A stretch of DNA of 64,000 nt from Longimicrobiaceae bacterium (lineage in GTDB: Bacteria > Gemmatimonadota > Gemmatimonadetes > Longimicrobiales > Longimicrobiaceae): NCBI GenBank assembly GCA_036375715.1, contig DASVBS010000081.1, forward strand, positions 1 through 64,000. The letters run 5' to 3'. Positions 2,157 to 30,580 of this stretch are shown here, in pieces; within the stretch, counting starts at the first letter, position 1; every line of letters starts with the position of its first letter. Made by a program: the position numbers and the translations under genes. Below the pieces are notes generated by a model. The model saw only the letters and a list, made by a program, of their open reading frames with translations, did no database searches and was not told the DNA's origin.

Positions 2157-3059
2157 ATGAGCAAAGGCCCCTTCACCCTGGGCTTGATCCAGGAGGCGGT
2201 GAGCAGTAATCGGCAGGAGCAGCTCGAGGCGTCCATCGCGAACGTGCGCGAGGCGGCTGGGCGGGGTGCACAGATCGTCTGCCTGCAGGAGCTCTTCAAC
2301 TCCCCCTACTTCTGCAAATCCACGCATGCGGACCGCTTCGACCTGGCGGAGCCCATTCCCGGCCCCACCACCACCCGCATGCAGGAGCTGGCGAAGGAGC
2401 TGCAGATCGTCATCATCGTCCCGCTGTTCGAGCGCCAGGGGCCCGGCGTCTATCGGAACTCCGCGGCGATCATCGACGCGGATGGGTCTCTTCTGGGCGT
2501 GTACCGGAAGATGCACATCCCCGACGACCCGCTGTACCACGAGAAGTACTACTTCGTACCCGGCGACGCGAACGACGCCACGGGTGGGTTCAAGGTCTGG
2601 CATACCCGCTATGCCCGTATCGGCGTGCTCATCTGCTGGGACCAGTGGTACCCTGAGGCCGCGCGGATCACCTCGCTCCTCGGGGCGGAGGTGATCTTCT
2701 TCCCCACCGCCATCGGCTGGCACCCTTCCGAGAAGGAGGAGCACGGAACGGCGCAGGTCGAAGCGTGGCGTACCATCCAGCGCAGCCACGCCATCGCCAA
2801 CGGGGTGTTCACGGCGTCGCCCAACCGGGTCGGACACGAGGACGAGCCCGGGACCGATGGGATCGAGTTCTTCGGGCATTCCTTCGTCTGTGACCCGTTC
2901 GGTCGCATTATCGCCGAAGCGGGCACTGAGCCGGAGGTGCTGGTGGTGGAATGCGACCCCGCACTGATCGACGAGACCCGCCGGAACTGGCCGTTCCTCC
3001 GCGACCGTCGCATCGACGCCTACGCCCCGATCCTCAACCGCTACCTGGCACAAACGTGA
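2157..3059 (+). CDS. aguB: N-carbamoylputrescine amidase
   Basis: A nitrilase-superfamily enzyme of 300 residues that hydrolyses N-carbamoylputrescine to putrescine, CO2 and ammonia, the last step of the agmatine route. The catalytic triad is visible: Glu in CLQELFNSPYF, Lys in YRKMHIPDDP, and Cys in VLICWDQWYPEAAR. The product reads colinearly with plant and bacterial AguB. The start has a good GGAGG Shine-Dalgarno. The stop overlaps the GTG start of the agmatine deiminase gene by 4 bp (GTGA), so the two are translationally coupled and their reactions are consecutive. Confidence 0.95.
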   Translation: MSKGPFTLGLIQEAVSSNRQEQLEASIANVREAAGRGAQIVCLQELFNSPYFCKSTHADRFDLAEPIPGPTTTRMQELAKELQIVIIVPLFERQGPGVYRNSAAIIDADGSLLGVYRKMHIPDDPLYHEKYYFVPGDANDATGGFKVWHTRYARIGVLICWDQWYPEAARITSLLGAEVIFFPTAIGWHPSEKEEHGTAQVEAWRTIQRSHAIANGVFTASPNRVGHEDEPGTDGIEFFGHSFVCDPFGRIIAEAGTEPEVLVVECDPALIDETRRNWPFLRDRRIDAYAPILNRYLAQT

Positions 3060-4078
3060 GCATCCGCTGGCCGGCGGAGTGGGAGCCGCACGCCGCCACC
3101 TGGATCGCGTGGCCACACCACGAGCCGGACTGGCCCGGGAAGATAGCCGCGATTCCGTGGGTCTACGCCGAGATCGTGCGCGTGCTGGCGGCGTACGAAC
3201 CGGTCGAGATCCTCTGCCACGACGAGGCAACCTGGGAAAACGCCGCCCGCGCCCTCGCGCTCCACGATGTGCGCGAGAACTTCCGCCTCCACCGGGTGGA
3301 GACCGACCGGGTGTGGACGCGCGACTCCGGCGGAAGCGGGGTGGTCACAGAGGAGGGGGTACGGTGGATTCGCTGGCGCTTCAATGCCTGGGCGAAGTAC
3401 GACAACTATACGCGTGACGAACGGGTGGGCGAACGGATCGCGGAGCTCTCCGGAATTCCGTCGATCGAGGCGCAGCGGCCCGACGGCGCCGGAAGGCTCG
3501 TGCTCGAGGGCGGGGCGATCGACACGAACGGGGCGGGGGTGATGCTCACCACGGAGGAGTGTCTCCTCTCACCGATCCAGGAGCGCAACCCCGGCCTCAC
3601 CCGACAGGGATACGAGGAGGCCTTCGCCCGCTACCTGGGCATCGAGCGCACCATCTGGCTCGGGCGCGGATGCGCTGGCGACGATACGCACGGTCACGTC
3701 GACGACATCGCCCGCTTCGTGTCCGAGGATACGGTTGCCCTGGCGTACGAGCCGAACCCCGCGGACGAGAACCACGCCGCCTCAGTAGAGAACGAGGAGC
3801 GGTTGCTCAGTGCCGGGATCAACGTGGTCCGGCTGCCCTTTCCGCGCGCCGTGATCATGGACGGCACCCGCCTTCCGGCGAGCTACGCTAACTTCTACAT
3901 CGCCAACGGCGTGGTCCTGGTACCCACCTTCAACGACCCGCAGGACCGCCACGCCCTGAACATCATCGCCAGCCTCTTCCCGGAACGGGAGGTCGTAGGC
4001 ATCCACTCCGTGGACCTCGTCTGGGGATTGGGCACGCTGCACTGTCTCACCCAGCAGCAGCCCGCACCGCCGGCCTGA
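3056..4078 (+). CDS. aguA: Agmatine deiminase
   Basis: Converts agmatine to N-carbamoylputrescine and ammonia (guanidino-modifying/PAD fold), feeding the amidase encoded just upstream. I chose the GTG at 3056, which overlaps the upstream stop by 4 bp and gives a 340-residue protein beginning SIRWPAEWEPHAATWIAWPH, the usual family N-terminus. A longer open frame from 2951 only adds residues out of frame with the amidase gene. Catalytic features: DxxWxRDSG-like region (VWTRDSGGSG), the HGHVDD motif (THGHVDDIARF) and the nucleophilic Cys near the end in LGTLHCLTQQQP. Together the pair makes putrescine without ornithine decarboxylase. Confidence 0.95.
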   Translation: MSIRWPAEWEPHAATWIAWPHHEPDWPGKIAAIPWVYAEIVRVLAAYEPVEILCHDEATWENAARALALHDVRENFRLHRVETDRVWTRDSGGSGVVTEEGVRWIRWRFNAWAKYDNYTRDERVGERIAELSGIPSIEAQRPDGAGRLVLEGGAIDTNGAGVMLTTEECLLSPIQERNPGLTRQGYEEAFARYLGIERTIWLGRGCAGDDTHGHVDDIARFVSEDTVALAYEPNPADENHAASVENEERLLSAGINVVRLPFPRAVIMDGTRLPASYANFYIANGVVLVPTFNDPQDRHALNIIASLFPEREVVGIHSVDLVWGLGTLHCLTQQQPAPPA

Positions 4079-4179
4079 CCCGGCCGCCGAGCCGTGCCCT
4101 CCGGAACCATCGCCAAATGAGTCGCCATTGCCTGGGGCGCCAGCGGAGGCGGGTGAGAGGGAGCGCCGCGGGAAAAATG

Positions 4180-4320
4180 TCCATCGCCACGTACCTGCCA
4201 TCATCCATAGATGCCGTCTCGTCGGAGGCCCGCGTCCGGTAGGTGGCTGGCGTCAAGTAGGTGCCATCGTCACGTAGGTGCCCATCGTCGGGAAGATGTC
4301 CATCGTCAATGCCTTCCGAC
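4180..4320. repeat. Degenerate ~18-bp tandem repeat patch
   Basis: The 326-bp gap between aguA and the next gene holds imperfect units of 17-18 bp resembling GTGCCCATCGTCACGTAG, clearest at 4260-4310. On the minus strand the units stay in frame and would read DDGHLP, DDGHLR, DDGTYL, so either a non-coding repeat or the trace of a repeat-bearing peptide. No Shine-Dalgarno or start supports a gene. The rest of the gap shows no convincing feature. Confidence 0.6.
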
Positions 4321-4404
4321 GCCATTAGATTATGACCGCTGGCGCGCCCACTCCTCCCGCCGGAGGCGCTCCATCCGCCGCCGCCCTCACCCCCTGGGGG
4401 TATC

Positions 4405-5793
4405 ATGCCCGCCACCCAGCTCTTCGCCCGCATCCGGGCCACCGAGTTCAGCCGGCTCGTTGAGTCCCACCATGCCTACCTCGATCACACCGGTAGCACG
4501 CTCTATCCCGAGTCGCTGGTCCGGCGCCACGCCGCACGGCTGGGCAGCGGCATTCTCGGAAATCCGCACTCCGAGAATCCCGCCTCCCTCGACAGCACGG
4601 AGGAGATCGAGCTGGCCCGCGACGCCGTCCTCCGTTTCTTCGCCGCGGATCCCACTGAGTACGCCGTCTGCTTCGTCGCGAACGCCACGGCAGCGATCAA
4701 GCTGGTCGGGGAGAGCTTCCCCTTCCGGCCTGACTCTCGCTTCGTGCTGAGCGCCGACAACCACAATTCGGTCAACGGCATCCGCGAGTTCGCGGCGCGG
4801 CGTGGCGCAGACGTGATCTACCTGCCCCTGACACGCGGGCTCCGCCTGGCGAACCCTCTCGCCTACATACCCGATTGCCGCGGTCGGCCAGCCTCGCTTT
4901 TCGCCTATCCCGCCCAGTCGAACTTTTCGGGAGTGGTGCACCCGTTGGAGCTGGTCGACACCGCCCACGCGCGTGGCTACTCGGTCCTGCTCGACGCCGC
5001 CGCCTTCGCTCCCACCCACCCTCTTCACCTGGATCGCGTGAAGGCGGATTTCGTGGCGATCTCGTTCTACAAGATGTTCGGTTACCCGACCGGCGTCGGC
5101 GCGCTGATTGCCCGACGCGATGCCCTGGAAATGCTCGAGCGGCCGTGGTTCTCGGGAGGCGCGGTGGATTTCGTGTCGGTGGGCGCTGGGATGCACCAGC
5201 TGCGCAACGGCGAGCCCGGGTTCGAGGACGGCACGCCGAACTTCCTGGGCCTCGGCGCAGTGGCCGATGGCCTCACTTTCCTATCGGAGATCGGCGTCGA
5301 GGCAATCGAAGCACACGTGCTCGGCCTCTGCGCACGTATGCTGGAGGGTCTCACGGCCATCCGATATCCGAACGGGTCTCCGGCGGTGCGCATCTATGGC
5401 CCGACATCGCTCCAGGCACGAGGGGCGACAGTAGCGTTCAACCTGCTCGATCCCGACGGAGACGTGGTTCCGTACGAGACACTGGTGGAAGCGGCAGGCG
5501 CAGAGGGGATCTCTCTCCGCGGGGGCTGCTTCTGTAACCCAGGCGCATCCGAGGCCGCCTTTGCCTACGACGCGGTGCGGCTGCGGGCGTGCCTCGAGCA
5601 ACTCGGAAAGGCTTTCACCCACCGGGGCCTCTCCGAGTGTATGGGCGGGGCGCCGGTCGGAGCCGTCCGCGCCTCGCTCGGCCTCTCCAGCAACGAGGAG
5701 GATGTCGATCGGCTGCTGATCCTGCTGCGTCGAATCAGCGAAGATCGGATCGCCCGTACGCCCCTACGCCTCAGCGGAGACGCCGTTGCCTGA
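4405..5793 (+). CDS. Class V aminotransferase-fold protein, MOCOS-N/cysteine desulfurase-like
   Basis: A PLP enzyme of 462 residues with fold-type I class V features: SADNHNSVNGIREF near the cofactor site, LLDAAAFAPTH (PLP-ring aspartate) and the Schiff-base lysine at residue 223 in ISFYKMFGYPTGVGAL. A GGCFCNPGA loop (Cys375, Cys377) matches the sulfur-accepting loop of the N-terminal half of molybdenum cofactor sulfurases (MOCOS/ABA3) and SufS/NifS relatives. The C-terminal MOSC domain of true MOCOS is absent, so the acceptor is unknown. No Fe-S or molybdenum genes adjoin it. Family assignment is firm; substrate is inference. Confidence 0.8.
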   Translation: MPATQLFARIRATEFSRLVESHHAYLDHTGSTLYPESLVRRHAARLGSGILGNPHSENPASLDSTEEIELARDAVLRFFAADPTEYAVCFVANATAAIKLVGESFPFRPDSRFVLSADNHNSVNGIREFAARRGADVIYLPLTRGLRLANPLAYIPDCRGRPASLFAYPAQSNFSGVVHPLELVDTAHARGYSVLLDAAAFAPTHPLHLDRVKADFVAISFYKMFGYPTGVGALIARRDALEMLERPWFSGGAVDFVSVGAGMHQLRNGEPGFEDGTPNFLGLGAVADGLTFLSEIGVEAIEAHVLGLCARMLEGLTAIRYPNGSPAVRIYGPTSLQARGATVAFNLLDPDGDVVPYETLVEAAGAEGISLRGGCFCNPGASEAAFAYDAVRLRACLEQLGKAFTHRGLSECMGGAPVGAVRASLGLSSNEEDVDRLLILLRRISEDRIARTPLRLSGDAVA

Positions 5794-5973
5794 CGCCGGC
5801 TTCTCCGCTCACACCATCGATTGTGGCGGTCACCCCGAAGACTCCGACGATTGCCCTCCCTGGCCTGTTGCGTGCAGAGGAGCAGCGCCGCAAATCTCTG
5901 CAGTCGGTCGCCCTACGGAGATCTCCGATCAACAGGGCATCCATCCTCCCGTTCCCTCCGAGGAGCTCAGCGG

Positions 5974-7428
5974 ATGACACCATTAGCGCGTCCGGTACTC
6001 ACCGTCGCACTGGCCTCGCTCACCTGCGCCTGCGCTTCGACAGCGGCGCGTCAGGCCCCCGCTTCGCCCGGGGAGCCGGCAGCACAGGAAGCGCCCACCG
6101 CAGCGCAGCAAGCGCCGACCGCGGCGCCGTTCCAGATCCCGGTCGACTATTACAAGCTCGACAACGGACTCCGGGTTGTCCTGTCGCGGGACACGACTGC
6201 CCCGAAAGTCGTTGTGGGCGTGTACTACAACATCGGATTCCGGATCGAACCCCGGGACCGTACCGGCTTCGCCCATCTCTTCGAGCACCTGATGTTCCAA
6301 GGCTCGGAAAACCTGGGGAAGATGGAGTTCATCCGGCTGGTGCAGAGCAACGGCGGAGTGCTCAACGGATCGACCCGGTTCGATTTCACCAACTACTTCG
6401 AGATCGTCCCCTCGCACACCCTCGAGACTGTGTTGTGGGCGGAAGCGGATCGCATGCGCGGGCTCGACATCACCGAGGAGAACCTGGAGAACCAGAAAGG
6501 GGTGGTGACGAACGAGGTGCTCGTGAACGTCATCAACCAGCCCTACGGCGGATTCCCCTGGCTGGACCTTCCCCAGCACGCCAACACGAACTGGTACAAC
6601 GCCCACAACTTCTACGGTGAGCTGGAAGACCTGCAGGCGGCCACCCTGGAAGACGCCCGCAGCTTCTTCGAGACCTACTACGCCCCCAACAACGCCGCCT
6701 TGGTGGTCGTCGGGAATTTCGATCCCGAGCAGACCCGACGCTGGATCGAGCAGTACTTCGCCGACATCCCGGCCGCGCCCCCGGCGGAAATGCCCGACAT
6801 TTCCGAGCCGCGGCAGACCGAGGAGAAGCGCGCCTCCCGCACTGACGAGAAGGCAACCCGGCCGGCGCTCGCCCTCGGATACCATGCACCTCCGCGCAAC
6901 ACGCCGGAGTACTTCGCCTTCGGGGTCCTGAACGAGATCCTCACCCAGGGACGGGACAGCCGCCTCTACCAGGCGCTCGTCCAGGAGCGCGGTCTGACCG
7001 GTGACGTCAGCGGTGGGATAAACCTCCTGGGCAACATGTTCAACATCAACGGCCCCACGTTGATGACGATCTACCTCTTCCACGACCAGAACGTCGAGGC
7101 GGATTCCATCGTGGCGGTAATCGACGAGGTGATCGACGAGTTGATGACGACTCCGCTCAGCCAGGAGGAACTGGACGAAGCGCTGGTGCAGGTCCGCTCC
7201 GCCCTCTACGACGAGGTGGAATCGATGTTCGGCTTCGGCCGAGCGGATCTGCTCGCCTCCTTCGCCCTCTTCGACGACGATCCGTCGCGCATCAATCGGC
7301 TGGAGGAGGAGTTCCGCAGCGTGACCCCCGAGCTGCTCCAGCGCACCGCACAGGAATACCTGCGACCGACCAATCGAACGATCCTGACCATCGAGCCCGG
7401 GGCTGCTCCCGGCCAGGAGGGACAGTGA
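5974..7428 (+). CDS. M16 zinc metallopeptidase, active subunit (lipoprotein)
   Basis: A 484-residue pitrilysin-family peptidase. I chose the ATG at 5974, which has a GAGGAG Shine-Dalgarno and opens a lipoprotein signal peptide with a lipobox-like LTCAC; an in-frame extension from 5821 looks non-coding. After a Pro/Ala/Gln-rich linker comes the catalytic inverted zinc motif HLFEH within GFAHLFEHLMFQGSENLG, with the downstream Glu in the ENQKGVVTNEV region. It is likely exported and cleaves oligopeptides in the periplasm. Its stop overlaps the start of the second M16 gene, which lacks the metal site; such active/inactive pairs form heterodimers in this family. Confidence 0.9.
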   Translation: MTPLARPVLTVALASLTCACASTAARQAPASPGEPAAQEAPTAAQQAPTAAPFQIPVDYYKLDNGLRVVLSRDTTAPKVVVGVYYNIGFRIEPRDRTGFAHLFEHLMFQGSENLGKMEFIRLVQSNGGVLNGSTRFDFTNYFEIVPSHTLETVLWAEADRMRGLDITEENLENQKGVVTNEVLVNVINQPYGGFPWLDLPQHANTNWYNAHNFYGELEDLQAATLEDARSFFETYYAPNNAALVVVGNFDPEQTRRWIEQYFADIPAAPPAEMPDISEPRQTEEKRASRTDEKATRPALALGYHAPPRNTPEYFAFGVLNEILTQGRDSRLYQALVQERGLTGDVSGGINLLGNMFNINGPTLMTIYLFHDQNVEADSIVAVIDEVIDELMTTPLSQEELDEALVQVRSALYDEVESMFGFGRADLLASFALFDDDPSRINRLEEEFRSVTPELLQRTAQEYLRPTNRTILTIEPGAAPGQEGQ

Positions 7429-8825
7429 TGCGCATCCATTCGGTTCGCCCAGCCCTCGCGCTCGCTGCCGTCGCTTCCATCGCTGTCGTCAGCGTGCCGG
7501 CCAGGGCGCAGCAGGCTCCCCCGACGCCCGGCACCCCGCGACCCTTCTCCGTTCCGGCCGCGCGCGAGTTTTCCCTCTCCAACGGGATGAAGGTGACCCT
7601 GGTGCCGTACGGAGAGGTCCCCAAGGCGCAGGTGCAGCTCATCGTCCGGGTCGGCAACGTGGACGAAGGGGCCGATGAAGTCTGGCTGGCCGACGTCACG
7701 GGCGACCTGATGCAGGAAGGAACCACGAACCGCTCCGCCGAGCAGATCGCCCGCGACGCCGCTTCGATGGGTGGCTCGATCGGGATCGGCGTTTCGTCGG
7801 CGCTCACCAACATCTCGGGCGATGCGCTGTCCGAGTTCGTGCCGCAGATGGTGGAGCTGATTGCCGACATTGCGCAGAACCCCTCCTTCCCGGCCGAGGC
7901 TCTCGAGCGGATTCGGGCCGACCGGCTGCGCCAGCTCTCCATCCAGCTCAGCCAGCCGCAAGCGCAGGCGCTCAGGAAGTTCGTGTCCGTGCTCTACCCG
8001 TCGCACCCGTACGGACGGCCCTTCCCCACTCCGGAGATGCTCCAGGGGTTCACCGCAGAGCAGGTGCGTGCGTTTTACCAGGAGAATTTCTCCGCCGCGC
8101 GCGCGCACCTCTACGTCGCCGGGCGCTTTGACGAGGTGGCTACCGAACAGGCGATTCGGGCCGCCTTCGAGGGATGGGAGGCAGGGAGTGAGTCGATGCC
8201 GAGCATTCCCTCACCGGAGAGCGGTCGCGCGGTCTACCTCGTCGACTCGCCGGGTGCGGTGCAGTCCACCATCTACCTCGGACTGCCGGTGATCGACCCG
8301 TCCAACCCCGATTACATCCCGCTGCAGGTTACGAACGCACTTCTGGGCGGCTCCTTCGCCTCGCGAATCACCAGCAACATTCGCGAGCAGAAGGGCTACA
8401 CCTACTCGCCGTTCAGCACGCTGTCCTCGCGCTACCGGGATGCCTACTGGGCGGAGATCGCCGACGTCACGACCGACGTGACCGGGCCGGCATTGACGGA
8501 GATCTTTTTCGAGATCGACCGGCTGCGGGGAGAGCCTCCATCGGAAGAGGAGCTGCGCGGCATCCAGAACTACCTGGCTGGCACCTTCGTCCTGCAGAAC
8601 TCCTCACGCGGCGGGATCATCTCGCAGCTCTCCTTCATCAACCTGCACGGCCTCGGCCGCGACTGGCTGGAGAGCTACGTGCCGCGGGTCTATGAGGTCA
8701 CACCTGCGGAGGTGATGCACATTGCCCGCACGTACCTCGATCCCTCACGCATGACGATCGTGGTGGTCGGAGACCGGTCAAAGATCGAAGACCAGCTGAG
8801 GGAGTTCGGAGAGATTCGCGAATGA
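7428..8825 (+). CDS. M16 family peptidase-like protein, inactive partner subunit
   Basis: A 465-residue secreted M16 homologue with a signal peptide ending near ARA-QQ. Where the active partner has HxxEH, this protein reads WLADVTGDLMQEGT, so the zinc ligands and catalytic Glu are gone. The R/Y pair used for substrate binding by non-catalytic subunits is suggested by the C-terminal REQKGYTYSPFSTLSSRYRD region. ATG at 7428 follows AGGAGGG at a 7-bp spacing and overlaps the upstream stop by one base; GTG at 7425 is the alternative. Expected role: substrate-capturing half of a heterodimer with the upstream protein. Confidence 0.9.
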   Translation: MRIHSVRPALALAAVASIAVVSVPARAQQAPPTPGTPRPFSVPAAREFSLSNGMKVTLVPYGEVPKAQVQLIVRVGNVDEGADEVWLADVTGDLMQEGTTNRSAEQIARDAASMGGSIGIGVSSALTNISGDALSEFVPQMVELIADIAQNPSFPAEALERIRADRLRQLSIQLSQPQAQALRKFVSVLYPSHPYGRPFPTPEMLQGFTAEQVRAFYQENFSAARAHLYVAGRFDEVATEQAIRAAFEGWEAGSESMPSIPSPESGRAVYLVDSPGAVQSTIYLGLPVIDPSNPDYIPLQVTNALLGGSFASRITSNIREQKGYTYSPFSTLSSRYRDAYWAEIADVTTDVTGPALTEIFFEIDRLRGEPPSEEELRGIQNYLAGTFVLQNSSRGGIISQLSFINLHGLGRDWLESYVPRVYEVTPAEVMHIARTYLDPSRMTIVVVGDRSKIEDQLREFGEIRE

Positions 8826-11479: not shown

Positions 11480-12568
11480 TCAGTCGATGGTCTGGGTAGG
11501 CTTCTCCAGCACCTGCTCGCCCTCGCTCAGGCCCTCCAGCACCTCGACCTGCATGGCGTCGCTCAGCCCGGTCCGAATCGCGCGACGCTCCGTCGTGCCA
11601 TCAGGGCGGCGCACCGTCACCCACGCTCCGCCGTCCTCGAAAGTGACGAGCCGCTCGGGAATCGCCAGAACGTTCTTGCGCTCGTTGATGATGACCTCGG
11701 CATTGGCCGACAGTCCGGCACGCAGCTTAACGTCGGGGGCCGCGTCGAGCTCGATCTCCACCGGGAAGCTGGTGGCGTTTTCCTCCTTGGTCGCCTTCAG
11801 AGAGATGCGCGCGACGCGACCGGTCACCTTCGCGTCGGGGAGCGCCCCGATCTTCACCTGAACCGGCATGCCCTCCTTCAGCCGTCCGACGTCGATCTCG
11901 TCCACAGTGCCGCGGAAGACCAGGTGCTCCATGTCTGCCATGGTCATCAGGACCGTCCCCTCCTGGTAGGAGGTAAGGGGGACGACCGGATCGCCCGGCT
12001 CAACGGTGCGATCCAGGATGTAACCGCTGATCGGGGCGCGCACGACTGACTCGACGTTGGAATCCTCGATGCGGCCGCTCTTCAGCAGCTCCAGGCGCTC
12101 ACGCGCGGTGCGCACCTCCAGCTCGGCCTGCTCGAACTGTCGCTGCGCCACCTCGAACTCCTGCTGGGAGATCAAGCCGCGCTCTGCCAGTGCCCGCTGA
12201 CGCTCGGCTTCCCGCCGATAATTCTCGAGCTGCAGCTCCTGCATCTCGAGGGCGCGCTGGGTCTCCACCATCTCGAGCGGAGTCGGATCCGGCCGGATCT
12301 CCAGCAGGGGATCACCGGCGGCCACGAAGTCACCCTCCTCCGCGTAGGCCCTTCCCACCACCCCCGACACCTTCGACTTGACGCTGACCTCCACGTCCGG
12401 CTCGATCGTGCCCACAGCCAGCGCCTTGTCGACGACGTCGGCACGTGACACCACTACCGCCGCGACTCCTTCGTCGTCGGCCCCGCGGGCACTGGACACT
12501 GCCAGACCGCCCGCGACGAGAACAAGGATACCCGCGGTTCCGAGTATGAACCGGTTGCGCTTCTTCAT
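11480..12568 (-). CDS. Periplasmic adaptor (membrane fusion) protein, MacA/HlyD type
   Basis: A 362-residue adaptor with an N-terminal membrane anchor (FILGTAGILVLVAGGLAVSS), a biotinyl-lipoyl half-motif (KVSGVVGRAYAEEGDFVAAG), a coiled-coil hairpin at about residues 95-160 rich in Glu/Gln/Arg, a second lipoyl half (APISGYILDRTVEPGDPV) and a beta-barrel plus membrane-proximal domain. Such proteins bridge an inner-membrane exporter to an outer-membrane duct. It is first in the operon with the two MacB-like permeases. No TolC-like gene adjoins it. Confidence 0.92.
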   Translation of the reverse strand: MKKRNRFILGTAGILVLVAGGLAVSSARGADDEGVAAVVVSRADVVDKALAVGTIEPDVEVSVKSKVSGVVGRAYAEEGDFVAAGDPLLEIRPDPTPLEMVETQRALEMQELQLENYRREAERQRALAERGLISQQEFEVAQRQFEQAELEVRTARERLELLKSGRIEDSNVESVVRAPISGYILDRTVEPGDPVVPLTSYQEGTVLMTMADMEHLVFRGTVDEIDVGRLKEGMPVQVKIGALPDAKVTGRVARISLKATKEENATSFPVEIELDAAPDVKLRAGLSANAEVIINERKNVLAIPERLVTFEDGGAWVTVRRPDGTTERRAIRTGLSDAMQVEVLEGLSEGEQVLEKPTQTID

Positions 12569-12686
12569 GGAAAACTCCGGAATGCCAGGTGCGGAGCTGT
12601 GAGGTAGGTCTGGAGAGCCTCGACGGCTATGTCAGGCGCTTGCCGCCCGGACTACGGGGGGAGAGGAGGGAAAGTTTCGGAAGGAA

Positions 12687-24141: not shown

Positions 24142-25320
24142 TCAGGCGTCGGGCACCAGCTTGTAGACGCTGCCGGAGAGACTCACCACGTACACCTCAC
24201 CCTCGTTGTCCACCCCGAAGGAGGAGATGTTCGACACGCCGTCGAGGTCGAGCGGAGCGTCGCCGCGCGCCTCACCGTCTTCGTAGCGGAAAGAGCGGAT
24301 CCAGTCGCGCCCGAAGTCGGCGTACAGGTACCGCCCCTGCAGCTCCGGAATGGCCTCTCCGCGATAGACGACACCCCCGGTGATGGAAATTCCCTGGGAG
24401 TGGGGGTACTCCACGACCGGCAGGACGAGGCCCTCCTGATCGCAGTTGGTTTCAGGCTCGAAGCAGTGCGTTCCCTCCATCCGGTCCCAGCCGAAGTTCA
24501 GGCCCCCTTCGTCGGCCGGTACCACCGATACCTCCTCCCAGGCGTTCTGCCCCACGTCGGCGACGTAGAGCAGGTTCTCCTCGGGGTCGAAGGCGACCCT
24601 CCAGGGATTGCGGAGCCCCAGGGCCCAGATCTCGGGGCGCGCGTCCGAGCGGTTGGCGAAGGGGTTATCCTGCGGGACCGCGTAAGGATCTCCTCCGTCG
24701 ACGTCGATGCGCAGGATCTTGCCCAGCAGCGTGTTGAGATTCTGACCGTTCCCTTGCGGGTCGCCCCCGCTGCCGCCGTCACCGGTGGGGATGTAGAGCC
24801 TCCCGTCCGGACCGAAGAGGAGGTGCCCACCGTTGTGGTTTCGGAAGGGCTGATCGAAGCCGATTACGAGCTTCGCTGAGGATGGGTCGGCGCGATTCGG
24901 ATCGCTGGAGCTCACCGAGTACCGCTCGACCCGCGTGTCCCCGTTGGAGTCGGTATAGTTTACAAAGAAGTACCCGTTGGTCGCGTAGTCCGGGTGGAAG
25001 GCTACGCTGAGCAGCCCTTGTTCGTTGCCGCCGCTCTCTACCTTCGAGTCGATGTCGAGAAAGGGCTCGGGCAGGAGCTGTCCATCCTGGACGATGCGAA
25101 TCCGCCCCGGCTGTTCCACGATGAAGAGGCGGTCGTCTCCCGGGGGCGAAGCAATGTGCACGGGCCGGGTCAGGCCATCCACCACTTCCTGCAGACGAAC
25201 ACCCACCTCGGTCGGCGGGGTGTTGTCTGGCGGGTTGTTTGGGCTACCAGGATCGTCGTCGGCATCCAGCGCACCGGAGCAACCGGCAGTAAGCAGTAGG
25301 ATCAGGGCGCAGCGAAGCAT
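24142..25320 (-). CDS. PQQ-type soluble aldose/sorbosone dehydrogenase (lipoprotein)
   Basis: 392 residues from the ATG at 25320, which opens a lipoprotein signal peptide (LILLLTAGCSG). The rest is the six-bladed propeller of the glucose/sorbosone dehydrogenase family: GLTRPVHIASPPGDDRLFIV, NEQGLLSVAFHPDY (with the catalytic His region), RNHNGGHLLFGPDGRLYIPT with GDGGSGGDP, and LRNPWRVAFDP. These exported enzymes oxidise aldoses with PQQ, or in some relatives bind sugars without activity. No PQQ biosynthesis genes are in the window. Confidence 0.88.
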   Translation of the reverse strand: MLRCALILLLTAGCSGALDADDDPGSPNNPPDNTPPTEVGVRLQEVVDGLTRPVHIASPPGDDRLFIVEQPGRIRIVQDGQLLPEPFLDIDSKVESGGNEQGLLSVAFHPDYATNGYFFVNYTDSNGDTRVERYSVSSSDPNRADPSSAKLVIGFDQPFRNHNGGHLLFGPDGRLYIPTGDGGSGGDPQGNGQNLNTLLGKILRIDVDGGDPYAVPQDNPFANRSDARPEIWALGLRNPWRVAFDPEENLLYVADVGQNAWEEVSVVPADEGGLNFGWDRMEGTHCFEPETNCDQEGLVLPVVEYPHSQGISITGGVVYRGEAIPELQGRYLYADFGRDWIRSFRYEDGEARGDAPLDLDGVSNISSFGVDNEGEVYVVSLSGSVYKLVPDA

Positions 25321-25427
25321 GTGTCTACGGGCCAGAGGTTTGCGAGCAATGCGGTCGCCATCGCCAATGTGCGGGCGGGCTCGGATCGACGGCAATAGCG
25401 ACCCCCGAATCCGTTCGTGCGAGCGTC

Positions 25428-28277
25428 TTAGAGGTCGCGTCCGCGCCAGGGCTCGTTCGCGTCGAGACAGTCGGCGAGCTCTATGTACACCCGTCGGGCA
25501 GCTTCGGTGAACGCGTCGTCATCGTGGGTCAGGGGGAGCAGGGCATCACGAATGCGTTCGGAAAGGCTCCCGCTGGCGATGATTCGTTCGGCCAGGTCCA
25601 GGTATTCCCCCTCGTCTCTACGGGCGTCGCGGCGCGCGCGCTCCAGCAGGCCACGGAGCACGTCGCGCACGGAGGCCTTCCCCTCGTTGTCGCGATCCGA
25701 GGTTCCCGCCAGGTGCATCGCCCATACCCGCGCCTCGCTGCCGGCACCGATGGTGGCGTGAAAGTCGTCCACCAGCAGCGCATGCGGAGGCAGCTCGAGC
25801 CGTCCAGCCCGCAGCGCCCTGGTGACCGCGCGAAGGACTGCCCGGGCGAACACGGCGATGGCGACGTCCATGCGTACACATTCCTGCGTATCCAGCACGC
25901 GGAGCTCCATCGACCGGCGGGAGAACTTGAACACGGCGCCACGGGCATTGAAGAACTCGTGGCGCAGCGCGCCGGCATCCTCGAGAGCATCGAGCGCCCG
26001 GTACATGGGACCGAGTACGTTACGGCGATAATCGGCCAGGCTGGAAGCGAACTCGGGAACGATCCACCCCTGCGATTCAGGAATCCGCGCCTGGTGCTTC
26101 AGGATCCAGGCAAGACGATTGTCTACCGCTTCCTGCAGCTCCCCGTCGTACATGGGGGAGCTGGCGGCCAGCGCCGGCAGATAGGGGATGACCAGAGCCA
26201 CGGCGTTCAGCATCGCCACCGCCTCCTCGCTCCGGCCCATTGGCAGGTTGAGGTGAGTGGAGTGGACGTTGAGCCAGCCGTGGGTGTGGACGTCGAACAG
26301 GCGGGCGTAGGTCCCGTAGATTCGCGTGTTGGAGCGGGACCAGAGCCGGGCGCGGCGAGGATTCAGCCAGGGGTGCATGCCGGTGGGCAGGAGTCGCGCT
26401 CCGAACCGATCGCGCAGCACCGCCGTGAACCTCTGCACGCCCTCCACCAGCCGCTGCTCTGCATCGCGCAGGCTGCGGGTGGGTTGCGGCGTCTTCACCT
26501 CGAAGACGTGATCGGCGATCTCGTTGGAGAACGCCACGTGCCCCAGATCCACGTCAGAAGTGGGACGACCGGCGAGCTCGCGCAGCGCCGGCGCCACCAT
26601 GGAGACGACGTTCAGGTCCCGGTCCACCACCGCGTACTCGATCTCCAGCCCGGCGACTTCGAAGGGCCGGAAATGCCGACGGTCGTCCGCGCGGACCGAT
26701 GCCGCGTGGGCGAGTAAGGCAGGGGCAGGCTCGGAAGAAAGAGGTGCGGGAGCGGTTCCTGAAGGCTCCTCGATACGATGCAGGAAGTATTTTACGATAT
26801 CCTCATAGATCTGCTCTCCGTCAGCGGCGTCGTCGTAGCCGATGTCCAGATTCGGGTTGTCGTTGATCTCGATCACGACCGGGCCACGCGACGTCTCTTT
26901 GATGTCGACCCCGTAGAGGCCCGCGCCTATGAGGGCCGCTGCGCGGATCGCGAGATCGCAGACCGCGGGAGGCGCATCCTGCCGTCGGACCGCCTCCACC
27001 TTTCCGAACCGCTCGTGACCCTCGTGCTCGCTTCGGATTTGCCAGTGACCCCGCGCCATGAAGTAGCGCGCCACGAAAAGGACGCGGCCGCCCAGGACCG
27101 TCACCCGCCAGTCGAAGTCGGTGGGAAGGTACTCCTGCGCGATCAGGAGGGGAGAGCGCCTGAACAGATCCGCGGTCACCTGTTCGAACTCCCGCGGAGT
27201 GGAGCAGCGGTACACCGCCGCCGAGAAGGAGCCGTCAGGGAGCTTGATCACCACCGGGCTGCCGAGCGATTCCAGACCGTTCCAACCGGTCCGCGGCGTG
27301 ATCACCTGGGTTCGCGGGGTGGGGATCTCCTCGCGCCGCAGCAGCTCCTCGAGAAAGACCTTGTTGCTGCAGCGGATGATCGATTGCGGATCGTCGATCA
27401 CCGGCATGTCGAGCATCTCCGCCCGCAGCGCGAACTGGAAGGAAGGCTCACGCACGCCGGTGAGGGTGCGGATGAACAGGGCGTCGTACTCGCCCAGCCG
27501 ATCGAGCTCGTCGATGCCGATGCGGTGGGCGTGCACTCTCAAGCGGCCGGCCACGCGCTCGAGTCGCTCGAGGGTCTCGGGCGTCGAGGGGCTGAAGGGA
27601 TCGTCAGGATCGAAAAGGATGGCCATCGATGCCCGCTTGAGCTCGGGCGCGACGACGGCGCCGCGGCGACGCACGCGACGCTCGTCCTCCAGCGCCTTGA
27701 TGAGCGGCGGGCGCTCCGCCTGGTCGAGCTGGGACAGCGGTACCGCGACCACGCGGTCGACCAGCCAGGAGTTGCCGTCCTCCACCAGGGTGAGACGCAG
27801 GACCGGGGTAGGCCACTCGCGATAGATCGCCTGGGCGGCCGCCCTCGCACGGGGGTCTGCGCAGCGGCCGAAGTAGGCGAGCACCTCGAGCTCGTTCCGC
27901 GCGCCGTTCTGTTCCTTCGCGCGCTTTCCCGAGGGACCGCTCCCCCCGTTCGGTGCGCGACGCCGGGCGAGACCTTCGCTCGTTTCCACAGTGGGCACGC
28001 CGGCCTCGTGCAGGATGCGCAGCACGCCGAAGCGCTCGGAGAGTCCTTCCAGGCCCTCCGCGGTGGGAAGCGCCTGCTGCCCGCGGGCATCCGCGATCAG
28101 CGACACGTAGTAACCCTTGGAGCGGTAGCGGTAGGAGCGGCAGAGGTTCACCACCGTGGCTCCTCGCGCGATCCCTTCCACGCCCGCGAGGTAGCGGTCG
28201 GCGGTGAGCAAGCGTTCAGCCGGAAGCTCCGGGAGGTCGTCGAGGGATGAGACGACGATCACAACTGTGTCGCTCAC
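25428..28277 (-). CDS. RLAN/RimK-like ATP-grasp fused to a GCS2 glutamate-cysteine ligase-like domain
   Basis: A 949-residue two-ligase fusion. The start GTG at 28277 overlaps the upstream stop by 4 bp (GTGA). Residues about 1-230 match the RimK-like ATP-grasp N-terminal domain (VVNLCRSYRYRSKGYYVSL). The ATP-grasp core follows, with VVIKLPDGSFS near residue 342 and the magnesium-binding EINDNPNLD at about 470. From about 535 comes a GCS2 domain (GLEIEYAVVD, TGMHPWLNPRR, NVHSTHLNLPMGR). Both halves form carboxylate-amine bonds with ATP. It should build or extend a peptide-like metabolite together with the C39-type peptidase encoded immediately upstream. Product unknown. Confidence 0.88.
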   Translation of the reverse strand: MSDTVVIVVSSLDDLPELPAERLLTADRYLAGVEGIARGATVVNLCRSYRYRSKGYYVSLIADARGQQALPTAEGLEGLSERFGVLRILHEAGVPTVETSEGLARRRAPNGGSGPSGKRAKEQNGARNELEVLAYFGRCADPRARAAAQAIYREWPTPVLRLTLVEDGNSWLVDRVVAVPLSQLDQAERPPLIKALEDERRVRRRGAVVAPELKRASMAILFDPDDPFSPSTPETLERLERVAGRLRVHAHRIGIDELDRLGEYDALFIRTLTGVREPSFQFALRAEMLDMPVIDDPQSIIRCSNKVFLEELLRREEIPTPRTQVITPRTGWNGLESLGSPVVIKLPDGSFSAAVYRCSTPREFEQVTADLFRRSPLLIAQEYLPTDFDWRVTVLGGRVLFVARYFMARGHWQIRSEHEGHERFGKVEAVRRQDAPPAVCDLAIRAAALIGAGLYGVDIKETSRGPVVIEINDNPNLDIGYDDAADGEQIYEDIVKYFLHRIEEPSGTAPAPLSSEPAPALLAHAASVRADDRRHFRPFEVAGLEIEYAVVDRDLNVVSMVAPALRELAGRPTSDVDLGHVAFSNEIADHVFEVKTPQPTRSLRDAEQRLVEGVQRFTAVLRDRFGARLLPTGMHPWLNPRRARLWSRSNTRIYGTYARLFDVHTHGWLNVHSTHLNLPMGRSEEAVAMLNAVALVIPYLPALAASSPMYDGELQEAVDNRLAWILKHQARIPESQGWIVPEFASSLADYRRNVLGPMYRALDALEDAGALRHEFFNARGAVFKFSRRSMELRVLDTQECVRMDVAIAVFARAVLRAVTRALRAGRLELPPHALLVDDFHATIGAGSEARVWAMHLAGTSDRDNEGKASVRDVLRGLLERARRDARRDEGEYLDLAERIIASGSLSERIRDALLPLTHDDDAFTEAARRVYIELADCLDANEPWRGRDL

Positions 28278-29056
28278 TCGGCTCCCGCGAGCTCGGGTCC
28301 CGGCCACAGCTCCAGGAGGACTGCGTCGTAGGTGAGGTCCCCCAGCAGGATCGCGTTGATGAGACGCTGGGCCTCCACCACCAGCCGGCCGTCAGGGCTT
28401 ACGGGCACATGCTCAGACGGGTCCCGGACGATGAAGCGCCTTCCCCAGCGTTCGTAACCGGAGACGACGATGAAGTGGCCGACCGGATCGCCAGCGACGT
28501 CGTCTTCCACCATCTCGTGCGTTCCGGGCAGATGGCGCTCCCGCGGCATGCGGTAGAGGTAAGTCGCGGAAAGTCCCGCGAGGATGGGGTGATCGCGGTC
28601 GAGGATCTGCTTCAGCAGGCGGGGGGTAAGCTCGTTGAAGCCGAGCGAGCCACCGAGCCGCAGGTACTCGAGATAGGCCTCGCCCGCCCGCCGCGCCTTC
28701 GCCTGACGGAGATAGGGCAGACGGGCGTCGATCTTCGCCCGAAGCTCCCTGCGTCCGAGTCCCTTCCAGGTGGGATCGAAGATTCGCAGGTCGTAGGAGA
28801 AGATCCGGGCACGAAATCCGCGACGCAATGCCGAGATGGCGAGGTAGACGGCGAGCGTTCCGCCATCCTCGTTGCGGTCGATCTCGCGCAGGATCTCTTC
28901 GAGCCCGGGGTCGATTCCGTAGAAATTGTAGACCTTGCGGAGGCAGGTCGGGCCGCAGGTCACATCGTCCGGCTGCAGGAAGCGCTGCAACGGAAGGTCA
29001 TGCGCGACCCGACTTCGTTGCGCGCGTCGGTCGTCAGGAGAAGCCGTGGTTCCCAT
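28274..29056 (-). CDS. C39-like papain-fold peptidase associated with amidoligase
   Basis: 260 residues from ATG 29056 (a GTG at 29110 is an alternative). The papain-like triad is visible: Cys34 in DDVTCGPTCLRKVYNFYG, His in DPVGHFIVVSGYERWG and Asp in FIVRDPSEHVPV. It lacks the ABC-transporter domains of bacteriocin C39 exporters and has no signal peptide, so it acts in the cytoplasm. Its stop overlaps the start of the ATP-grasp/GCS2 gene by 4 bp. Such peptidase-amidoligase pairs are known from comparative genomics of ATP-grasp peptide ligases; cleaving or trimming the ligase substrate or product is inference. Confidence 0.85.
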   Translation of the reverse strand: MGTTASPDDRRAQRSRVAHDLPLQRFLQPDDVTCGPTCLRKVYNFYGIDPGLEEILREIDRNEDGGTLAVYLAISALRRGFRARIFSYDLRIFDPTWKGLGRRELRAKIDARLPYLRQAKARRAGEAYLEYLRLGGSLGFNELTPRLLKQILDRDHPILAGLSATYLYRMPRERHLPGTHEMVEDDVAGDPVGHFIVVSGYERWGRRFIVRDPSEHVPVSPDGRLVVEAQRLINAILLGDLTYDAVLLELWPGPELAGAE

Positions 29057-29293
29057 CCGGTTTGTTGACCGCCCGTGGGCGGGTGAGGATCCGGCACGAG
29101 AGGCTTGCACGCTCCATACCCGGGTGCACCCTTCTCCTGCTCAAGCGTTGCGCCACCCTTGCCGATACTCTGGCCACGGGCGAGTACGGACCGAGAGACG
29201 GGGAGTGTGGCGTTTTTCGGCTTTTCGCCGTAAACTACAGTACACCAGGCTGTCCACCTTCCAGGCCCATCACGAGAACCGCAGGGAAGAGCC

Positions 29294-30580
29294 ATGACCC
29301 CATCGCACGCCGTTCCGGCGCCCGGCCGTACACGAAGGTGGCGGGTCCCCCCGCCGCTCACCAGGGGAGCGGAGCTCCTCGAAGGAGCCGACATTCTGCG
29401 TGAGATGAGCGGGGAGGTGGCGGTGCTGCTATGGAAGTCCCTACGCAGCATCACCTTGTGGGCGTCGGCGAATCCGCGGGAGCTGGGCGAGCTGTTCACG
29501 GAGGGTGCGGAACAGCGCCGCATCGCCGAGATCCTGGTGACGGAGATGGACGAGGAGCTGGTGGAGCCGCTACGCACCTTTGCGGCGGTACTCGGCCAGG
29601 CGAGCACGATGCGGCGGGAGCCGGTGGCTCTCGCCTGTCGCCAGGTGGCGCAGTGGGCGATGGCGCACGATTACAGCGGAACCGCGCTGGCGTTCACGCA
29701 AGCGGCTGCGCTCGTCTGCCCCGCGGACGCGGAGCTGGCCCACGAGGTGGGCCGGCTCGCCCGCGCCGAGGGCGAGTACGCTCGGGCCGAGAGCTGGCAC
29801 CGCCGGGCGATCATGCTCGGACGGCAGACCGGCGCCTGGGAACCGTACGCGCGCTCCTACGTCAGCCTGGGCAACCTCGCCAGCCACCGCGGTAACTTCC
29901 CGCTGGCCCGGCGTTGCCAGATCAAGGCATACCGTGCCGCCAAGCGCCACGCCCTCGGCGAGGTGATGGGGATGGCGCTGCACGACCTCTTCCTGATTGC
30001 TCTCGACAGCGGTGAAGCTGCAACGGCCCAGCGCTACGCCCGGCAGGCTTTCCGAGCCTATGGCCCGACCCACGACCGGATACCCTACCTGGCTCACGAC
30101 CTTGCGGTCCTCTGGATGCGCGAAGGCCAGTTCCAGCAGGCGTTGCCGGTACTCCAGGCGTTGATGCCACGCTTTACTTCGGTGGACGAGCAGTTGCTCG
30201 TCCAGGCCAACGTTGCCCGTGCGGCCGGCGGTCTCGGTCAGATGGAGCTGTTCGAGCAGGCCTGGAACAATGCTCACAATCTCATGCTTCTTCCTCAAAC
30301 CGCACCGCGTCGAGCCCAGGCGTTGCTCAACCTGGCTCGAGGAGCCACGGGGCTGGGCTTGTGGGATCGCGCGGAAAGCGCCGCGCGCGCTGCCCTCGAG
30401 CAGGCAACGATGCGTGGAGAAGCGCAGATCGTCTTCGAGGCCGAAGCCGTTCTCTCCTGCGCTCAGACTCACCATCATGCAGCCGCGTCCGTTAGTGCTC
30501 CGGACAATCAGTTGCCAGAAGATGCAGAGATTGTTGAGGAGTTTCTGCAGGCACTTACAGCTGTGGGGGCGGAGGCCTAG
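29294..30580 (+). CDS. TPR-repeat protein of unknown function
   Basis: 428 residues, predicted all-alpha. TPR-like units run through most of the protein, for example GRLARAEGEYARAESWHRRA, LGNLASHRGNFPLARRCQIK and LARGATGLGLWDRAESAARA. No DNA-binding domain, signal peptide or membrane helix is visible. Architecture recalls stand-alone TPR peptide sensors of the Rap kind, but there is no direct sequence evidence for that. It is divergent from the peptidase/amidoligase operon (237-bp gap) and convergent with the small lipopeptide gene, separated by a shared terminator whose loop contains its TAG stop. Confidence 0.8.
   Translation: MTPSHAVPAPGRTRRWRVPPPLTRGAELLEGADILREMSGEVAVLLWKSLRSITLWASANPRELGELFTEGAEQRRIAEILVTEMDEELVEPLRTFAAVLGQASTMRREPVALACRQVAQWAMAHDYSGTALAFTQAAALVCPADAELAHEVGRLARAEGEYARAESWHRRAIMLGRQTGAWEPYARSYVSLGNLASHRGNFPLARRCQIKAYRAAKRHALGEVMGMALHDLFLIALDSGEAATAQRYARQAFRAYGPTHDRIPYLAHDLAVLWMREGQFQQALPVLQALMPRFTSVDEQLLVQANVARAAGGLGQMELFEQAWNNAHNLMLLPQTAPRRAQALLNLARGATGLGLWDRAESAARAALEQATMRGEAQIVFEAEAVLSCAQTHHHAAASVSAPDNQLPEDAEIVEEFLQALTAVGAEA

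Follow-up and report, generated by a model that had tools for sequence, protein, structure and literature searches.

A C39-like papain-fold peptidase beside a fused RLAN/ATP-grasp and GCS2 ligase in a Longimicrobiaceae genome, and the exchange of partner genes in related operons

The peptidase and ligase gene pair

We analyzed a window of 64,000 nucleotides of DNA from a Longimicrobiaceae bacterium (the whole stretch under study, contig DASVBS010000081.1), in which two overlapping genes on the minus strand encode a cysteine peptidase and a large ligase fusion. The features of this locus are as follows:

28274-29056, minus strand: gene for a C39-like papain-fold cysteine peptidase, 260 amino acids, ATG start (Pfam hit, AlphaFold and Foldseek)
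28274-28277, minus strand: 4-bp stop/start overlap GTGA, in which the ligase starts at GTG and the peptidase stops at TGA
25428-28277, minus strand: gene for an RLAN / RimK-type ATP-grasp / GCS2 fusion, 949 amino acids, GTG start
27708-28196, minus strand: RLAN domain, about residues 28-190 (Pfam PF14401, E=1.1e-27, 96.9 bits against a cut-off of 25)
26844-27368, minus strand: RimK-type ATP-grasp domain, residues 304-478 (E=1.5e-11, 44.7 bits against 21)
26682-26759, minus strand: low-confidence linker between the ligase halves, residues 507-532 (pLDDT below 50)
25824-26651, minus strand: GCS2 domain, residues 543-818 (PF04107, E=4.2e-21, 76 bits against 21)

Gene order and the 4-bp overlap are as the original prediction had them, and the domain identities that it proposed were confirmed, with Pfam RLAN, RimK ATP-grasp, GCS2 and Peptidase_C39_2 all above their curated cut-offs. 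The earliest available start of the peptidase reading frame is a GTG at 29110, and the ligase frame offers a longer alternative GTG start at 28307; the ligase start at 28277 is backed by alignment with relatives. At the shared GTGA, translation of peptidase and ligase would be coupled. The source genome carries a single copy of the peptidase and a single copy of RLAN, and it encodes an additional, distinct GCS2 protein elsewhere. Among named genomes, the closest relatives of the window belong to Gemmatimonadota. A chance pairing of the two genes is ruled out, because the ligase recurs, whole or in pieces, in 16 of 20 other genomes of the family and the peptidase/ligase arrangement is seen again in other phyla.

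Downstream of the ligase, across a gap of 33 bp and on the same strand, lies a glucose/sorbosone dehydrogenase-like (GSDH) gene (24142-25395, minus strand). It was considered as a member of the operon and is absent beside the loci of relatives, so that we take it as unrelated. A TPR-repeat gene (29294-30580, plus strand) diverges upstream of the peptidase; a relative of this gene adjoins the system in locus L113 and lies about 3 kb off in L019, and local synteny may exist.

The ligase combines two different carboxylate-amine ligase folds, RimK-type ATP-grasp and GCS2, in one chain, as had been claimed, and the catalytic positions are kept in both. Residues K306, K345, D458, E470 and N472 of the ATP-grasp domain are invariant in 27/27 homologues, as are E545, E547, N585, E586, H590, E593, K595, R779, E791, D796 and E799 of the GCS2 domain in 26/26. 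With RLAN above its cut-off and followed by an ATP-grasp domain, the protein belongs to the RLAN (PF14401) RimK-like ligases. Its AlphaFold model has a pLDDT of 88.1 and a pTM of 0.55, and given the latter value the relative placement of the two halves is not fixed by the model. Foldseek finds a likeness to YbdK for the GCS2 half (TMt 0.83) and to RimK, LysX and ArgX for the ATP-grasp half (TMt about 0.73-0.83). Note that the fusion stays below the NCBIfam cut-off for the YbdK family of carboxylate-amine ligases (TIGR02050, 53.4 bits against 176.4). Residues 507-532 show the greatest length variation among relatives in the alignment and, in the model, look like a flexible linker.

The peptidase is recognized by Pfam Peptidase_C39_2 (PF13529) with E=9.4e-10 and 39.7 bits against a cut-off of 24. 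Cys34, His194 and Asp212 form a candidate catalytic triad that is invariant in 25/25 homologues, and Gln28 is a further invariant candidate catalytic residue. As no hydrophobic stretch is found at its N-terminus the enzyme is probably cytoplasmic, in agreement with the original prediction. In the AlphaFold model (pLDDT 90.5) the protein exceeds the C39 core in length, with a helical insertion at about residues 100-155. Foldseek searches with this model return first C39 domains (TMt about 0.8 on the core), then the pseudomurein endoisopeptidase PeiR (E=8e-6) and the phytochelatin synthase Alr0975 (E=4e-4). Both are papain-fold cysteine enzymes like the window peptidase and act on isopeptide or gamma-glutamyl bonds, but they share 11-13% identity with it, superpose loosely and lack a family-level sequence match. 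For phytochelatin synthase, whole-model superposition gives a TMt of about 0.5 at 11-12% identity, and the peptidase has no Pfam match to the phytochelatin synthase family model, the likeness being one of fold alone. The earlier designation as a C39-type peptidase holds for the fold, whereas the family, with its extra helical insertion, is far from the leader peptidases of ABC transporters: the gene stands alone, no ABC transporter is among the commonest neighbour families of the GCS2 loci, and no conserved candidate for a precursor was found beside it in 22 related loci.

Linkage to RLAN and exchange of partner genes

The linkage of peptidase and ligase, which the original prediction had presumed, is conserved in two phyla. 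In one sample of 200 Gemmatimonadota genomes, searched for RLAN and for the peptidase profile, RLAN was found in 15 genomes and the peptidase at 12 strong places, and 12/12 of these copies adjoin RLAN. The three RLAN genomes that lack the peptidase are all of the GNAT type. Among 246 Planctomycetota genomes, RLAN is no more than 1.5 kb away at 42/46 strong peptidase places, and 44/45 genomes with the peptidase also contain RLAN. RLAN domains occur in 65 of these 246 genomes, about a quarter, with strong matches in 56, and are found in many further phyla. The corresponding hypergeometric values of 7e-17 (Gemmatimonadota) and 2e-36 (Planctomycetota) refer to related and hence non-independent genomes. 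Of eight inspected Planctomycetota RLAN loci that have no adjoining peptidase, five are of the GNAT type, one has a peptidase about 1.6 kb off, and two are GCS2 fusions without peptidase. The peptidase is dispensable, as the fused loci L039, L142 and L143 do not have it. An open reading frame upstream of the L039 fused gene was considered as the missing peptidase and rejected; its translation contains no C39 motif, and it looks like a spurious frame. In searches of plasmids, 22 records match the ligase and none matches the peptidase. At L145 (genome G352, Planctomycetota; 2241-8627, minus strand) a distance of about 1.6 kb separates peptidase and RLAN, with GCS2 retained.

The window fusion is one lineage's variant of a three-gene operon that runs peptidase, RLAN/ATP-grasp, GCS2 where the genes are unfused; RLAN and GCS2 overlap by 4 bp in at least 15 loci with separate genes. 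We further surveyed 91 distinct loci, the best 80 of at least 575 in named genomes together with 12 from related genomes, a query-biased set. In this set of the best 80 of at least 575 plus 12, GCS2 adjoins or is fused to RLAN at 34/91 loci, a GNAT acetyltransferase accompanies RLAN instead at 51/91, neither is present at 6/91, and the two occur together at 0/91. In 32 of those 51 GNAT loci the GNAT gene is joined to another kind of C39-like domain, DUF3335. Cultured carriers include Roseivirga, Chryseolinea and Blastopirellula for the GCS2 type and Thalassospira for the GNAT type. Fusions with RLAN exist for both partners, GCS2 at the C-terminus and GNAT at the N-terminus of RLAN. On an unrooted RLAN tree the three partner labels require 7 changes, against a mean of 33 after shuffling, and since partner exchange follows the tree in so few steps the locus counts are not independent. 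The fused GCS2 proteins form a single branch with strong support, which also takes in two Gemmatimonadota loci without the fusion. The term 'double amidoligase', which the original prediction had used, does not capture the essence of the system, because the same RLAN ligase pairs with GNAT elsewhere and the fusion is limited to one lineage.

A census of neighbour families around the GCS2 loci is scattered apart from one gene, an FGase-family hydrolase (PF05013, N-formylglutamate-amidohydrolase-like), that stands out. Among the same 91 loci (best 80 of at least 575, plus 12) it is found in 18/34 GCS2 loci, often immediately after GCS2, and in 0/51 GNAT loci. In an annotated Legionella record a RimK family protein, a glutamate-cysteine ligase family protein and an N-formylglutamate amidohydrolase follow each other consecutively. 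As FGase is absent from the source genome and from nearly all of its family, it is an accessory component.

Amidoligase neighbourhoods were reportedly covered by Iyer, Abhiman, Burroughs and Aravind in 2009, in Mol Biosyst 5:1636, a paper cited in PMC12239564; the name of the RLAN domain reportedly stems from that work. The neighbourhoods reported there resemble the window in that predicted operons for peptide synthesis bring ATP-grasp or other amidoligases together with peptidases of unrelated kinds, and related arrangements have probably been described before. All constituent families were already known; new here are the recognition of the fusion as an operon variant, the exchange of GCS2 and GNAT, the FGase gene in about half of the GCS2 loci and the fold matches of the peptidase. 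Searches of the literature on RLAN, on RimK together with GCS2, on FGase together with ATP-grasp, on DUF3335 and on NAGGN turned up no product that has been characterised.

Possible function and competing explanations

The best-supported reading is that the pair would synthesize or remodel a small gamma-glutamyl peptide. More specifically, we propose a cytoplasmic module that builds and trims a small gamma-glutamyl-type peptide or amide, an assignment to which we give an even chance. In the reactions, order, substrates and product that we infer for this module, the GCS2 domain would activate the side-chain carboxylate of glutamate with ATP and join it to an amine, yielding a gamma-glutamyl cap. 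The RLAN/RimK-type ATP-grasp part would couple an amino acid to a carboxylate that is free on that molecule, thereby forming the second amide bond, with the substrate perhaps held by the RLAN domain. Via an acyl-enzyme on Cys34 the papain-fold enzyme could catalyze cleavage or transpeptidation and thereby trim, recycle or polymerise the product. Where an FGase-family hydrolase is present it might take apart a glutamyl amide, and in GNAT loci N-acetylation by the acetyltransferase would stand in place of the GCS2 step. It is by analogy that we give GCS2 a capping role and place one ligation before the other. A GNAT acetylates an amine, a GCS2 enzyme ligates glutamate to one, and the two are mutually exclusive beside the same ATP-grasp ligase, which suggests that they are interchangeable amine-capping steps on a small peptide made by that ligase. 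The match of the peptidase model to enzymes of isopeptide or gamma-glutamyl bonds, PeiR and phytochelatin synthase, counts in favor of such a module, as do the domain identities, the kept catalytic positions, the gene linkage and the confinement of FGase to GCS2 loci. The absence of FGase from the source genome, the fused loci that have no peptidase and the loose superposition on phytochelatin synthase weigh against it.

In their logic, the two versions of the operon may be likened to known pathways, the GNAT version to that of N-acetylglutaminylglutamine and the GCS2 version to glutathione synthesis. The N-acetylglutaminylglutamine synthetase Ngg (TIGR03103) resembles the GNAT-type RLAN locus in combining GNAT with ATP-grasp and yielding a capped dipeptide. 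However, its family model is matched neither by the window fusion protein nor by a GNAT-type RLAN protein; GNAT domains alone match, and weakly. The bifunctional glutathione synthetase GshF likewise unites a GCS-type glutamate ligase with an ATP-grasp ligase in a single chain, but its order is GCS, then ATP-grasp, whereas the window protein has RLAN and ATP-grasp before GCS2, belongs to another GCS family (GCS2) and possesses the RLAN domain.

The main rival to the small-peptide reading is a reversible tagging of proteins: the ligases would extend a protein with a glutamyl tail or cap, in the way that RimK modifies ribosomal protein S6, and the peptidase would remove it in the manner of RimB. 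We regard it as unlikely, while granting it some weight: the ATP-grasp domain is RimK-like, peptidase and ligase genes overlap, and RimK/RimB, with its glutamylation and reversal, is a precedent for a ligase with a counteracting peptidase (PMC12239564). The window locus shares with that system a RimK-type ATP-grasp ligase and a partner peptidase, but differs in its RLAN extension and GCS2 half and in a peptidase of papain fold that is not retropepsin-like. With the NCBIfam model of RimK family alpha-L-glutamate ligases (TIGR00768) the fusion moreover scores 80 bits, short of the cut-off of 143.4, the characterised enzymes of the GCS2 and FGase families use small molecules, and the census of GCS2 loci revealed no conserved neighbouring target protein.

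Less probable still is a glutathione-like thiol system, a specific version of the small-peptide reading in which a reversed GshF would make gamma-Glu-Cys-X and the papain-fold enzyme would be a transpeptidase resembling phytochelatin synthase. Joining an ATP-grasp ligase to one of GCS type does follow the logic of GshF, the GCS2 profile matches plant glutamate-cysteine ligase weakly (E=2e-4), and the likeness in fold between the peptidase and phytochelatin synthase points the same way. Against this stand the missing Pfam family match and the GNAT-type loci, which are entirely devoid of GCS2.

Two further readings are very improbable. Maturation of a RiPP or graspetide, with the C39-like peptidase cutting a leader and the ATP-grasp enzyme macrocyclising a ribosomal precursor, would fit the occurrence of both enzyme types in RiPP pathways (PMC8939145). 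Speaking against it, 22 loci of relatives, which include duplicates, show no conserved short precursor-like open reading frame next to the operon, ABC transporter families are missing from the commonest neighbours of the GCS2 loci, and PMC8939145 describes C39 as not typically encoded within ATP-grasp loci. An amino-group carrier protein system, where a LysX/ArgX-like ATP-grasp enzyme would load an amino acid on the glutamate that ends a LysW-like carrier and the product would be released by the peptidase, is brought to mind by the structural likeness of the ATP-grasp half to LysX/ArgX and by a score for LysX about as good as for RimK (TIGR02144, E=3.8e-22), but that score of 78.7 bits is below the cut-off of 275.6, and the operon has no conserved small carrier gene.

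Beyond the window, the small-peptide reading extends to a more tentative idea, which we hold to be somewhat below an even chance: that at least 10 bacterial phyla contain a so far unrecognised family of small peptides, made by RLAN/ATP-grasp ligases and capped interchangeably with gamma-glutamyl or N-acetyl groups, which a papain-fold enzyme trims or polymerises. The GCS2/GNAT exchange and the restriction of FGase to GCS2 loci raise the concrete questions of which amine is capped and whether the peptidase cuts that very bond. If true, such a widespread gamma-glutamyl metabolite would be important both to bacterial physiology and to the discovery of enzymes.

Further variants of the locus

Several individual loci depart from the common arrangement. 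In six Thalassospira loci (L068, L072, L088, L092, L095 and L106) GNAT is fused N-terminally to RLAN, and the neighbour on the opposite strand is a second GNAT fused to a DUF3335-like C39 domain. L042 has an additional weak RimK/ATP-grasp-like stretch (11881-12597, plus strand) immediately after GCS2, and in L020 a dimethylargininase (DDAH)-like gene (6408-7232, minus strand) lies directly downstream of the fused ligase with a gap of 4 bp. L131 (G247:C315:6733-9402) is a diverged homologue over both halves, with 37% identity and one apparent in-frame TGA, which may reflect a frameshift, an error or two separate genes. The Legionella adelaidensis record of L150 (NZ_LR134436.1) is labelled 'plasmid 27', but as it carries fur, bamE and dapF it looks like a piece of a chromosome.

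An RLAN/ATP-grasp gene is also found in a Pseudomonas aeruginosa record, and by synteny it may be PA1345, which we take as a lead at most. In a table of predicted Cpx-regulator sites within PMC12802237, PA1345 is given as a hypothetical ATP-binding protein.
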